From Chloroflexota bacterium (GTDB lineage Bacteria > Chloroflexota > Anaerolineae > Anaerolineales > Villigracilaceae), in contig VGNO01000002.1 in NCBI GenBank assembly GCA_016865985.1, positions 1 through 47,660 on the forward strand: a stretch of DNA of 47,660 nucleotides, written 5' to 3'. This document shows, one piece after another, positions 2,949 through 18,650 of this stretch. The translations under genes and the position numbers were made by a program. The first letter of the stretch is position 1. Every line of letters starts with the position of its first letter. The notes below the pieces were generated by a model. The model did not search any database and was not told the DNA's origin. It saw only the letters and a list, made by a program, of their open reading frames with translations.

Positions 2949-2978
2949 TTGACAATGGAATATTTGTTCTATTATAAT
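2949..2978 (+). promoter_or_regulatory. Sigma70-type promoter TTGACA-N18-TATAAT
   Basis: TTGACA at 2949-2954 and TATAAT at 2973-2978, 6 nt before ATG 2985. Confidence 0.75.
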
Positions 2979-2984
2979 GACCGC

Positions 2985-3395
2985 ATGTCCTTCTGGCGTC
3001 GCCTTCCGGATCTCTTCAGGCTGCGGCAAAATACCGGCGCTCACTATTGCCTGCTCGAAGAGCCCATCTACACGGACATCCTCTCCCTGGCCGAACAACA
3101 AGGACGCTCCCCGGATGAACTGGTCGCCGATATCCTGGTTGCCGGCCTGGCCCAGCAGCGCGCCACCGATGCCCTCTGGCAGCGCTGGCAATCCCTCTCG
3201 CCGCGCGAGCAGGATGTTTCCGCCCTGGCCTGCCTGGGCCATACAAACCGGCAGATCGCAGCCCGGCTGGGTATTTCAGATGAAACGGTCAAGACCCACC
3301 TGCGCAACGCCCTCTCCAAGTACAGCCTGCACGGACGTTCCGAACTTCGCCAGGCGCTCTCCTTTTTGGATTTTTCCGTCTGGGGTCGCCAGTAG
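2985..3395 (+). CDS. LuxR-type HTH protein
   Basis: C-terminal LSPREQDVSALACLGHTNRQIAARLGISDETVKTHLRNALSKYSLHGRSEL is a GerE/LuxR HTH. Longer ORF from 2901, but the promoter places the start at 2985. Confidence 0.82.
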   Translation: MSFWRRLPDLFRLRQNTGAHYCLLEEPIYTDILSLAEQQGRSPDELVADILVAGLAQQRATDALWQRWQSLSPREQDVSALACLGHTNRQIAARLGISDETVKTHLRNALSKYSLHGRSELRQALSFLDFSVWGRQ

Positions 3396-3462
3396 CAGGC
3401 CTTGCAAGCCTGTCCCCCCTGCATCTGCCTCCCCATTAGGGGTAGCGCACTTCTCCCCCGCC

Positions 3463-3487
3463 AAATCCCCCGCCGGGGGATTTTTTT
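3463..3487 (+). terminator. Rho-independent terminator
   Basis: AAATCCCCCGCCGGGGGATTTTTTT hairpin plus T-tract. Confidence 0.8.
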
Positions 3488-3515
3488 CCTCCGGCCGGCG
3501 GGGTATGCTGCTGGC

Positions 3516-4043
3516 ATGGACCTTCTCTTGTTCCCTCCCCGCACCCTGACCGTTCTCAACAGCCCGGAGGCGGCCGGTGGACCGGTGGTCGAACTCATCG
3601 CCCACCTGGCTCTCCACAACCCGGTGACCATCCTGGACGGCGGGAACTGTTTCCCGGCCTACCGCCTGCTGCGCCGGCTGCGCGGCCGGACCGGGGACCC
3701 GCAGCCTGCCATGCAGCGCGTCTTCGTCCGGCGCGCCTTTACCTGCCACCAGGTGCTGGCCATGCTAGAAGGGACGCCGTCCCAACCGCAGCCGCACATC
3801 GTGCTCGATTTCCTTACAACATTCTACGATGAGCAGGTCCCGGAAAACGAAACCCGGCGCCTGTTCAATGCCTGCCTGCGCCAGCTGGAACGCCTGGCGT
3901 TGAGCGCCCCGCTGCTGGTGACCGTCACCTCGCCGCGCCTGCCGGCCCGAAGTTACCTCCTCGAACAGGTCAGCGCCCGCGCCGGCCGGCTCCACCTCCC
4001 CGGGATCCCCTCCCGGCCGGCGCTTCAACCTTCCCTGTTTTGA
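3516..4043 (+). CDS. RecA/RadA-like protein without recognisable Walker A
   Basis: MDLLLFPPRTLTVLNSPEAAGGPVVELIAHLALHNPVTILDGGNCF...; Walker-B-like HIVLDFL. The P-loop position reads NSPEAAGGPVV with no GKT. Confidence 0.55.
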   Translation: MDLLLFPPRTLTVLNSPEAAGGPVVELIAHLALHNPVTILDGGNCFPAYRLLRRLRGRTGDPQPAMQRVFVRRAFTCHQVLAMLEGTPSQPQPHIVLDFLTTFYDEQVPENETRRLFNACLRQLERLALSAPLLVTVTSPRLPARSYLLEQVSARAGRLHLPGIPSRPALQPSLF

Positions 4044-4065
4044 TCGTCCTCCACCAATCCCTGCC

Positions 4066-4329
4066 ATGGGCCGCACCCTTCCCTCCGCCACACAGGCTTT
4101 CCTCCAGGAGCAGGAGTCCTTCTCCCGCTTCCGGCGCGCCCTGCGCCGTTCCGACCAGGTCGCCCTCGATGACCTGTTCGTGGCCGCCCGCCAACACCTG
4201 GCCCCGGCGGCCTACGCCAGCCACGCCCTGCCCTTCGAGATCTTCCTCCTGGCGATGCTGCTCGAAGAGCATAAAGTGGTCCTGCGCCTCCGCCGGCATC
4301 TCGACGAACTTCGGTCGACGAATGCCTGA
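4066..4329 (+). CDS. Small hypothetical protein (87 aa) between RecA-like and PolB genes
   Basis: MGRTLPSATQAFLQEQESFSRFRRALRRSDQVALDDLFVAARQHLAPAAYASHALPFEIFLLAMLLEEHKVVLRLRRHLDELRSTNA; stop overlaps polB start by 8 nt. Confidence 0.7.
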   Translation: MGRTLPSATQAFLQEQESFSRFRRALRRSDQVALDDLFVAARQHLAPAAYASHALPFEIFLLAMLLEEHKVVLRLRRHLDELRSTNA

Positions 4330-6541
4330 CCTGACCGGCTGGCTGCTGGACGTGTACGCCGGGGAACAGGACGCCACCCTCTGGGTCCTGGGCGAGGACG
4401 GCGGGCGTCACTGCCTGCGCCACCCGTTCCCGGTCACGTTCTATGCAACCGGCGCGGCCGGCGACCTGCGCCGCGCCTGGCGCTGGTTCGGCTCCCAACC
4501 GGAAGCGCCGCGCCTGGGGCGGGTGGAACGCCGCGACCTGTTCAGCGGGCCTGTCACCGCCCTGGCGGTGGAAGTCCAACATCCCGCCGACCAGCCAAAA
4601 CTGTTCCGCCGCGCCGCACAGGTCTTCCCCGGCCTGGCTTGGTATGACGCGGACCTCCCGCTCGCCTTGCGTTATTCCGCCGTTTTCGGCCTTTTCCCCC
4701 TGGCGCACTGCCGCCTGAAAACAGAGGGGACCCTCGTCCGGGACATCGCTCCGCTCGATTCGCCCTGGGACCTCGAGCCCGTCCGCCCGCCGGTGCGGGT
4801 CATGATGCTGGAACCGGACTGCGATCCTTTCCATGCCGAACCGCGCGGTCTCTTCGTCTCGTACAATGGCTGCCGTTATCGCCAGCCGTTCGAGCCGCCG
4901 CGGCGCTTGTTGGTCAACCTCGGCGCCATCCTGAAACAGTACGACCCCGACCTGCTCCTGACCGCCTGGGGCGACACCTGGCTCCTGCCGCGCCTCCTGG
5001 AATTATCGGCCGGGGCCGGCCACCCGCTGCCTCTCAACCGGGACCCGGACGGGCGCATCCTGCACAAAGGCCAGCGCACCTACTATGCCTATGGACAGGT
5101 GATCTATCGCGGCGCGCAAGTGCACCTGGCAGGCCGCTGGCACCTGGATATTTACAACGCAATCATGTACCACGACTATGGCCTGGAGGGCGTCCTGGAA
5201 CTGGCGCGCGTCACCGGCCTCCCGGTCCAGACGGTGGCGCGCACCTCCCCCGGTACCGGCATCTCGGCCATGCAGATGGCAACCGCCCTCCAGCAGGGCG
5301 TAATGATCCCCTGGCGCAAACAGCAGGCCGAGAGTCCCAAGAGCGTGCTCGACCTGGTGCGCGCCGACATGGGCGGGATGGTCTACCAGCCGACCACCGG
5401 CCTGCACGCCGACGTGGCCGAGATCGATTTCGTCTCCATGTACCCGAGCATCATGGCGCACTTCAACATCTCCCCGGAGACGATCCTGCCCGGCCGGCGG
5501 GACCCTGAAACCGGCCTGCCATTGACCGTCCTGGAGCCGGGGCTGGTCCCGCAGACCCTCCGGCCGCTCCTGCAAAAGCGCATCGCCTTGAAAACGGCCC
5601 TGATGGGGCTATCCAAATGGGACAGCCGCCGCAAACCCTTCCTGGCTGCGGCGTCGGCGCACAAATGGCTTCTGGTAACCTGCTTCGGCTATCTCGGGTA
5701 CAAGAACGCCCGTTTCGGGCGGATCGAAGCCCACGAGGCGGTCACCGCCTACGGGCGGGAGGCGCTGCTGCGCGCCAAGGAGGCCGCCGAAGACCTGGGA
5801 TTCGAAGTGCTCCACATGTACGTGGATGGGATCTGGGTCAAGAAACAAGGCTCCAAAACCCCGCCCGATTTCCAACCCCTGCTGGATGCGATCCTGGAGC
5901 GCACCGGCCTGCCCATCTCGCTCGACGGCGTTTTCCGCTGGGTGGCCTTCCTGCCGTCCCGGCTGGATGCGCGTGTCCCGGTGCCGAACCGCTACTTCGG
6001 CGTCTTCCAGAGCGGGGAGATCAAGGCACGCGGCATCGAACTTCGCCGCCGGGATACACCCGCTTTCGTCAGGGAGACCCAACAAGCGCTGCTGGAGGCG
6101 CTTGCAACAGCCCCGGATGTCGAGAGTCTCCCGGCCTTGCTCGATGAAGCGTGGGCGCTCGTCCGCAAGCGGCTGTCGGACCTGAAAGCGGGTCGCGTGC
6201 CGGTCGAGAAATTGATCGTACGCCAGACTCTCAGCCGGGAACTGGAGCGCTACCGCTCCCCATCGCCTGCTGCTGTGGCGGCGCAGCAACTGGCGGGAAC
6301 GGGGAAGAACCTGAGACCGGGGCAATCTGTCCGGCTGGTCTACACCCTGGGTAGGCCGGGCGTCCGGGCATGGGACCTGGCCGGTGAGTTCGACCGGCGG
6401 TCAGTGAACATTCCCGAATACCGCAAGTTGTTGCTGCGCGCCGCGCAGACGGTTCTTTCACCGTTCGGGAAAGCGGATGACTTACAGGGCGCGTTGCCAA
6501 TCCCATTGCCGCACCCATCCCTGGCGCCTGGGCTGGTATGA
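4322..6541 (+). CDS. Family-B DNA polymerase-like protein with altered motif C
   Basis: Motif A AEIDFVSMYPSIMAHFNISPET; motif B region KWLLVTCFGYLGYKNARFGRIEAHEAVTAYGRE; motif C position MYVDGIWVKK. Start at MPDLTGW; the ORF upstream of 4322 is out-of-frame read of the 87-aa gene. Confidence 0.85.
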   Translation: MPDLTGWLLDVYAGEQDATLWVLGEDGGRHCLRHPFPVTFYATGAAGDLRRAWRWFGSQPEAPRLGRVERRDLFSGPVTALAVEVQHPADQPKLFRRAAQVFPGLAWYDADLPLALRYSAVFGLFPLAHCRLKTEGTLVRDIAPLDSPWDLEPVRPPVRVMMLEPDCDPFHAEPRGLFVSYNGCRYRQPFEPPRRLLVNLGAILKQYDPDLLLTAWGDTWLLPRLLELSAGAGHPLPLNRDPDGRILHKGQRTYYAYGQVIYRGAQVHLAGRWHLDIYNAIMYHDYGLEGVLELARVTGLPVQTVARTSPGTGISAMQMATALQQGVMIPWRKQQAESPKSVLDLVRADMGGMVYQPTTGLHADVAEIDFVSMYPSIMAHFNISPETILPGRRDPETGLPLTVLEPGLVPQTLRPLLQKRIALKTALMGLSKWDSRRKPFLAAASAHKWLLVTCFGYLGYKNARFGRIEAHEAVTAYGREALLRAKEAAEDLGFEVLHMYVDGIWVKKQGSKTPPDFQPLLDAILERTGLPISLDGVFRWVAFLPSRLDARVPVPNRYFGVFQSGEIKARGIELRRRDTPAFVRETQQALLEALATAPDVESLPALLDEAWALVRKRLSDLKAGRVPVEKLIVRQTLSRELERYRSPSPAAVAAQQLAGTGKNLRPGQSVRLVYTLGRPGVRAWDLAGEFDRRSVNIPEYRKLLLRAAQTVLSPFGKADDLQGALPIPLPHPSLAPGLV

Positions 6542-6590
6542 AACAAAAATCAGCCTGCCGCAGCGGCAGACCGATGGGTCGATCGTCAGG

Positions 6591-6662
6591 TGAGTGTGGA
6601 GAGGCTCGAACTCTCAACCAATGGCTTAAAAGGCCACTGCTCTACCATTGAGCTACACACCC
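6591..6662 (-). tRNA. tRNA-Lys(TTT)
   Basis: Reverse complement GGGTGTGTAGCTCAATGGTAGAGCAGTGGCCTTTTAAGCCATTGGTTGAGAGTTCGAGCCTCTCCACACTCA folds as a cloverleaf: 7-bp acceptor, D arm GCTC/GAGC, anticodon loop CTTTTAA, T arm GAGAG TTCGAGC CTCTC. No encoded CCA. Confidence 0.93.
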
Positions 6663-17294: not shown

Positions 17295-18650
17295 ATGAAC
17301 CGCGCACTGTCATTACTCCTAAGCATTATCCTATTCGCTCCCCTGCTTGCTGCCTGCGGAAACCAAGCCACGTCTACACCCGCAAACACACCACGACATC
17401 CAAACGCCACGTCAATTTTCACCCCTGCCGTCGCACCAACGTCAACCGCAACCCCTGTGCCGGAAGTGCTCTTTCAAGAATTGAGCAGAACCTGGCGGGT
17501 GGCTTATTGGGACACTGCATCCGACCAGGCTTGTGCGATGTACGGGGATGGCTCCGGAAAAATATGTACGCCTCTTCTGGATGCATATCAATTTTTTGGA
17601 GAATCCTGGTCTCCGGATGGCACCCGCCTGATCTTCACAGACGTTTTCGGCCTCTCGATTTGGAGATTGGATGGAGGCATCACCCCTTTCCAGGTAAATC
17701 CCGGCATCGCTTTTCGAGCGCCTGACTGGTCTCCGGACGGGAAATATATCGCCTTCCAGTCCACCGAGCTGGGGCGTACCTTGGGTCAATCTATTGCGAT
17801 GGATATATTCGTAAACAGCCTGGATGGTGCCATTCACCGCAATATCACCCGGTATCTCACCACCGATAAACCGGACAGTCAAAACCCCGATTGGTCGCCG
17901 GATGGATCGATGATCGCTTTTGACTCAAATGGCACCAAGCCGAATCCCAATTATCCGGAAAATCCCTGGCGCTTTATCCCCGATGATACTGATATCTATG
18001 TTGTATCCCCGGATGGGAACGATCTAAAAAGGCTGACTTACAGCGAGGCCGAGGATGTTGTACCGGTCTGGTCGCCAGATGGCCTGCAAATCGCCTTCCT
18101 GAGCGACCGAGGCGGATCCTACGGTCTCTACATCATGAATGCCGATGGGACAGACACCCGGTATGTGGCTCCCCTTGCGATTAATAATTTCCGGTATGAT
18201 GGGGATACCGATTATTCCTGGTTGCCGAACGGAAAATTCATCCTGTTCAAAGACCAACTCATCGATTTAGAAAGCGGAGCTATTTCAGGGCTTTCTTTCC
18301 CATTCAGTTCTTATGGCGGAACCTGGTTGATGGGCGATACAGATTCAACCATAGTACCCATCCCCACCCCTCACTGTGCCTACGGTTGGAGCCGGCTGTA
18401 CATTGGTGCTCATGCCGTCGTATCCGGCGGAACGAGTGACCCACCCAACCGAGTCCGCTCCATGCCGAGCACGACAGCCGAGATCATCCATCAAATTTAC
18501 CCAGGCGCGATCGTGAAAATACTGGAAGGCCCGGTCTGCGCAGACGGATTGGTATTCTGGAAAGTGGAAAATAAAACCATCCCAGGCGGCTTGGGCTGGA
18601 CAGCCGAAGGTGATGGAACCGTGTATTTCATTGAACCCCCCACACCGTGA
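17295..18650 (+). CDS. TolB/PD40 beta-propeller-like lipoprotein with C-terminal SH3-like segment (cassette 0 cargo)
   Basis: Lipobox LLAACG; repeated W-SPDG blades (ESWSPDGTRLIFTD, PDWSPDGKYIAFQS, PVWSPDGLQIAFLS); C-terminal NRVRSMPSTTAEIIHQIYPGAIVKILEGPVCADGLVFWKVE. Confidence 0.85.
   Translation: MNRALSLLLSIILFAPLLAACGNQATSTPANTPRHPNATSIFTPAVAPTSTATPVPEVLFQELSRTWRVAYWDTASDQACAMYGDGSGKICTPLLDAYQFFGESWSPDGTRLIFTDVFGLSIWRLDGGITPFQVNPGIAFRAPDWSPDGKYIAFQSTELGRTLGQSIAMDIFVNSLDGAIHRNITRYLTTDKPDSQNPDWSPDGSMIAFDSNGTKPNPNYPENPWRFIPDDTDIYVVSPDGNDLKRLTYSEAEDVVPVWSPDGLQIAFLSDRGGSYGLYIMNADGTDTRYVAPLAINNFRYDGDTDYSWLPNGKFILFKDQLIDLESGAISGLSFPFSSYGGTWLMGDTDSTIVPIPTPHCAYGWSRLYIGAHAVVSGGTSDPPNRVRSMPSTTAEIIHQIYPGAIVKILEGPVCADGLVFWKVENKTIPGGLGWTAEGDGTVYFIEPPTP

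Follow-up and report, generated by a model that had tools for sequence, protein, structure and literature searches.

Four open reading frames (ORFs) lie in a row within a 47,660-nt stretch of Anaerolineae (Chloroflexota) DNA, referred to here as the window (Table 1). They encode a small LuxR/GerE-type regulator, an inactivated RadA-family protein (iRadA), a small protein (PPB2), and a family-B DNA polymerase (PolB2). ORF calls and Pfam searches agree with the four-gene row described in the initial annotation, which had also reported tight overlaps. An overlap is present between the PPB2 and PolB2 ORFs (8 nt), but the other junctions are gaps of 22 nt (iRadA to PPB2) and 120 nt (regulator to iRadA). 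The longer gap is the site of a second promoter-like element. A tRNA gene is located just downstream of polB2. Elsewhere in the window, GC content is 0.43–0.55 between positions 18000 and 26000, compared with about 0.6–0.7 in the flanks, and this section is possibly a genomic island.

Table 1. Genes, control elements, and protein motifs of the PolB2 locus, in window positions
Feature	Position	Strand	Description and basis
Regulator promoter, sigma70-type	2949..2978	+	TTGACA 2949-2954, 18-nt spacer, TATAAT 2973-2978; read from sequence
LexA (SOS) box TGGAATATTTGTTCTA	2956..2971	+	Within the promoter spacer, between -35 and -10
Regulator gene	2985..3395	+	LuxR/GerE-type, 136 aa; Pfam, AlphaFold, Foldseek; kept upstream of iRadA
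C-tract	3453..3459	+	Columns -61..-57 relative to the iRadA ATG, within the conserved control element; column information, 37 relatives
Dyad ATCCCCCGCCGGGGGAT	3465..3481	+	Centred at -43 relative to the iRadA ATG; candidate operator of the regulator, or hairpin/terminator; de novo motif
-10-like TATGCT	3504..3509	+	6 nt upstream of the iRadA start codon; the promoter is apparently leaderless
iRadA	3516..4043	+	Inactivated RadA/RAD51-family protein, 175 aa; profile vs PDB, AlphaFold, Foldseek
QPSLF clamp motif	4026..4040	+	C-terminal beta-clamp-binding motif of iRadA
PPB2	4066..4329	+	arCOG07300-like, 87 aa, MGRT start; sequence and relatives
PolB2 polymerase	4322..6541	+	739 aa; Pfam/NCBIfam, alignment of 14
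PolB2 motif A Asp	5426-5428	+	Kept, Asp369
PolB2 second motif C Asp	5825-5827	+	Kept, YVD (residues 500-502), Asp502
tRNA-Lys (ttt)	6589-6662	-	

Identity of the three-gene core

The subunits and their order were identified computationally. iRadA alone had no Pfam or PHROGs match, and single-sequence searches returned only chance-level matches; a profile was therefore needed. The profile of 48 orthologues matched archaeal RadA in the PDB (E = 9.6e-9). The AlphaFold model (pLDDT 91.9, pTM 0.86) had RAD51D and RadA as its top Foldseek matches (best E = 3.8e-8). The fold is that of a RadA/RAD51 relative, in line with the RecA-like protein lacking Walker A that had been described from the sequence, and the N-terminal domain is also missing. 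No GxxxxGK[TS] loop occurs in the printed rows (every second of the 48) of the orthologue alignment, in which an LDLLxTFYDE region is conserved. Homology to ImuA was rejected because the matches listed for the profile are to RadA/RAD51 and include no bacterial RecA. Among 75 relatives, 58 carry a clamp-like motif within the final 30 residues of iRadA, whereas shuffles would give about 3. In PolB2 mutasomes such a motif, in iRadA or PolB2, is frequent without being universal.

PPB2 belongs to no Pfam family; in PHROGs it matches two phage families whose function is unknown (best E = 7.9e-10). Relatives share its MG(R/N)(T) start, and the MG is invariant in 22 sequences. PolB2 matches PF00136 (E = 3.4e-26), and its best NCBIfam model is NF004416 at 369 bits, below the cut-off of 516. 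Asp369, Lys448, and Asp502 are invariant in an alignment of 14 relatives, and the first Asp of the DxD motif is replaced by Tyr. Inspection of the same alignment by eye revealed no conserved DxE ExoI motif. Conservation of gene order, a point left open in the initial annotation, was found in dozens of genomes, where iRadA, PPB2, and PolB2 are kept in this order and a single orientation far above chance.

Makarova 2014 (PMC4104785) reported archaeal operons, and some bacterial ones, that combine PolB2 with an inactivated RadA and arCOG07300 and in some cases include lexA. In the main text of Timinskas 2025 (PMC11791011), arCOG07300 is renamed PPB2, the inactive RadA is named iRadA, and iRadA-PPB2-PolB2 is given as the only order in bacteria. 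The same text presents a modelled heteropentamer in which a PPB2 trimer joins a single PolB2 and a single iRadA, and lists lexA, SRAP, and DUF72 as enriched bacterial neighbors. The locus shares with the system described there the three subunits in the bacterial order, the MGRT arm, the absence of the first DxD Asp, an inactive RadA without its N-terminal domain, the C-terminal clamp motif of iRadA, and a link to the damage response. It differs in its fourth gene, which here encodes a LuxR-type regulator; neither such a regulator nor a helix-turn-helix neighbor is mentioned in that main text. With gene order, MGRT, the RadA homologue, QPSLF, and the DxD substitution all present, and a LexA box in the regulator promoter, positions 2985–6541 very probably hold a bacterial PolB2 mutasome operon under SOS control. 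The initial annotation had proposed a repair or mutasome operon combining an inactivated RecA-family protein with a family-B polymerase, which matches the PolB2 mutasome. It had also stated that no named system has this composition; the published PolB2 mutasome (PMC11791011; operon earlier in PMC4104785) contradicts that statement and rules out a new, unnamed mutasome.

An earlier view (Rogozin 2008 and Makarova 2014) holds that PolB2 is catalytically dead and has a scaffolding role or regulates replication. The missing first Asp and the lack of a visible conserved exonuclease motif are consistent with it, but Asp369, Lys448, and Asp502 are retained throughout the alignment. The main text of PMC11791011 also reports that archaeal PolB2, which lacks the same Asp, is active and is needed for targeted mutagenesis. 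On these grounds a dead polymerase is highly improbable. The Sulfolobus Dpo2 operon (arCOG07300, radA-like, polB2) contains a homologous polymerase and partners and is damage-inducible (main text of PMC11791011). It differs in having archaeal control and PCNA, whereas LexA-type control and a beta-clamp motif are found here. By homology to archaeal PolB2/Dpo2, the three proteins are predicted to assemble into a complex with translesion activity. No experimental study of any Chloroflexota PolB2 mutasome member was found in the literature.

ImuA-ImuB-DnaE2 likewise pairs a RecA-family protein with an error-prone polymerase in an SOS-controlled operon, a parallel drawn in the initial annotation. 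The parallel stands as a functional analogy, but it does not extend to the components. That system has a C-family polymerase and an inactive Y-family ImuB, whereas the RecA-like protein here is a RadA/RAD51 relative, PPB2 has no ImuB-like polymerase fold, and searches of Pfam, NCBIfam, and PHROGs gave no Y- or C-family match (ImuB or DnaE2 homologue) in the cluster. With analogy in its favor, and with ImuB and DnaE2 missing and all three subunits matching the published PolB2 mutasome against it, a new mutasome of the ImuA-ImuB-DnaE2 type is extremely improbable.

The full set of iRadA, MGRT-starting PPB2, and PolB2 also occurs in the same order in two Leptospira phages, KF114878 and KF114879 (L242 2707–5759; L243 2698–5954), where the genes are annotated only as hypothetical proteins and a family-B polymerase. 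These clusters differ in lying in phage genomes and in having no LuxR-type regulator in the stretch examined. A tblastn search with PPB2 gave no match in phages; a profile search finds PPB2 in the Leptospira phages. Phages are not mentioned in the main text of PMC11791011. An IMG/VR contig (L238 5741–8376) carries an MGRT-starting PPB2 and PolB2, with no iRadA, directly after apparent tailed-phage structural and lysozyme genes, and Anaerolineae phages may therefore carry part of the mutasome.

The regulator gene, its LexA box, and its distribution

The regulator has a short variable N-terminal domain and a NarL/FixJ-like helix-turn-helix, recognized by Pfam as a GerE/LuxR domain (E = 3.3e-14). 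In two members the N-terminal domain is ribbon-helix-helix-like (AlphaFold, Foldseek). The TATAAT of its promoter ends 6 nt before the ATG at 2985, and the transcript is apparently leaderless. This promoter architecture is shared by 31 of 45 relatives (both hexamers with ≤2 mismatches).

The initial annotation had proposed looking for an SOS box upstream of 2985 or 3516, and computation places one upstream of 2985. TGGAATATTTGTTCTA ranks first of 95,290 window positions scored with a position weight matrix from 45 relatives, although its left half is degenerate, with GAAT instead of GAAC. A box with ≤1 mismatch to GAACANNTGTTC is present at the regulator promoter in 45 of 49 relatives (mean of Markov controls, 0.3). 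The same arrangement is found at the genome's own recA (TTGACGTATCGAACGTTTGTGCTATACT) and lexA (TTGACACAGAACGGATGTTCGTGTTATATT), and at recA in 22 of the 30 relatives' loci. A further site, with two mismatches, immediately precedes an ORF that was identified by eye as uvrA-like. The regulator gene is predicted to be part of the LexA regulon, as the box at its promoter is the same as at the organism's own lexA and recA. A GAAC-N4-GTTC LexA site has also been reported for Dehalococcoides, another member of the Chloroflexota; the literature on LexA sites in Chloroflexi yielded nothing further of use. Two paralogous putative membrane proteins of about 250 aa (L064 1501–2320 and L067 1501–2249) are each encoded directly 3' of top LexA boxes in the genome and are candidate uncharacterized SOS genes.

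PolB2 was identified by E-value in 29 of the 61 genomes searched, own genome included. Four of these 29 matches (G015, G034, G026, and G017, the last at a contig end) are fragmentary, remnant, or of unclear assignment to PolB2. The best 80 loci of a public genome collection carry Chloroflexi or Anaerolineae labels, including the cultured genera Ornatilinea, Leptolinea, and Flexilinea. The regulator gene is directly upstream of iRadA in most relatives. PolB2 or a remnant occurs in 23 of the 24 genomes that have the regulator and is missing from 32 of the 37 that do not (Fisher P = 5e-11, or 1e-8 with remnants counted as absent). These counts use full-length matches only, with two PolB2 remnants scored as present, and were classified by hand from two tables. 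This near-complete co-occurrence makes the LuxR-type gene a member of the cassette. Nearly all solo copies of the regulator (L139–L143, L145, L147, L149) have their own LexA box. Two genomes with a solo regulator, G015 and G034, have only PolB2 remnants elsewhere, and the regulator may therefore outlive the mutasome. In Ornatilinea apprima, Leptolinea tardivitalis, and Flexilinea flocculi, the PolB2 operon has direct LexA-type promoters. The survey thus shows the PolB2 mutasome to be frequent in Anaerolineae. Most copies are under LexA control, direct or indirect, and a dedicated regulator with a matching control element at a fixed position usually accompanies them.

A fixed-position element upstream of iRadA

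Alignment of 37 non-redundant relatives by the iRadA start codon only revealed a control element at a fixed position. Downstream of the C-tract, it comprises a C-rich arm (-49..-45), a G-rich arm (-41..-37), and a T at -35. T, A, and T at -12, -11, and -7 are present in 33–35 of the 37 relatives; these -10 columns are partly biased because the choice of start was in part guided by the -10 element, and the dyad columns are unbiased. The dyad region (-62..-34) holds 14.4 bits of information, compared with 3.5 ± 0.45 for the shifted null. In loci without an adjacent regulator it holds 3.5 bits, within the shifted range (mean 2.6, maximum 4.1); a dyad fixed at -43 is prominent only in loci that have one. 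Arm spacing varies in several relatives. No conserved -35 hexamer was seen at the iRadA promoters.

LexA boxes show the opposite distribution, occurring at the iRadA promoter in none of 49 loci with an adjacent regulator and in 11 of 23 without. Several of the iRadA promoters that have neither show box-like variants, and some loci have no adjacent regulator and no clear LexA box. Two loci in which the regulator is on another contig (L037 and L051) keep the dyad at iRadA and have no LexA box there. When 61 genomes were searched with a strict composite pattern of the element, which misses variants, six matches were obtained: four lay at iRadA, and the other two shared a genome that has no PolB2. 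The idea that the pattern marks a wider regulon was accordingly rejected. The window copy of the element is terminator-like, with an A and seven T after CCCCCGCCGGGGG. A conserved terminator was rejected for the element because only 16 of 49 relatives are terminator-like; since the window dyad has this property, attenuation may also operate. The three-gene core is known, and the dedicated regulator and control element are undescribed in the main texts found.

A proposed two-step SOS relay

On balance, we favor a two-step relay, in which LexA represses the LuxR-type regulator and the regulator activates the mutasome through the -43 dyad and the leaderless promoter. We infer this from the contrast in LexA boxes at iRadA (0 of 49 vs 11 of 23), the solo regulators with their own box, the co-occurrence of regulator and PolB2, the fixed dyad, and loci L037 and L051. 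DNA damage would inactivate LexA and release the promoter at 2949–2978, and the small LuxR-type protein would be made. It would then most likely bind the dyad at 3465–3481 and turn on the iRadA promoter; both this contact and its activating sign are proposed on comparative grounds. iRadA, PPB2, and PolB2 would be produced together and form the heteropentamer modelled for relatives. The QPSLF motif would tether the complex to the beta clamp, and PolB2 would extend mismatched or lesion-containing primer ends, allowing survival at the cost of mutation.

A simpler arrangement would be an SOS operon expressed by read-through from the LexA promoter, with the -43 element serving as a terminator or attenuator combined with a constitutive promoter, while the LuxR-type protein would act elsewhere. 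The textbook terminator formed in the window by CCCCCGCCGGGGG and its A and seven T, together with the 16 terminator-like relatives, is what this arrangement would predict. Most relatives have no terminator, yet the distance from element to ATG is fixed; the element is kept in L037 and L051 without an upstream regulator gene; and the strict pattern occurs mainly at iRadA (four of the six matches). Read-through is on these grounds rather unlikely. Still less likely is that the LuxR-type protein represses the mutasome promoter as a feedback brake, with no activation. In favor of a brake, the -43 dyad overlaps the -35 region and could thereby block RNA polymerase, and the regulator has its own LexA box, as feedback repressors may. 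The lack of a conserved -35 hexamer at iRadA is instead expected of activator-dependent promoters, and LuxR-type activators commonly bind near -43, the class II activator position at which the dyad lies.

The PolB2 operon can be tested in the cultured Ornatilinea apprima, Leptolinea tardivitalis, and Flexilinea flocculi. If the two-step relay is true, it would be a timing mechanism for mutagenesis in bacteria of a large and mostly uncultured group. By placing a delay stage ahead of the mutagenic polymerase, it would give a dedicated transcription factor the timing role that protein processing has in Pol V.
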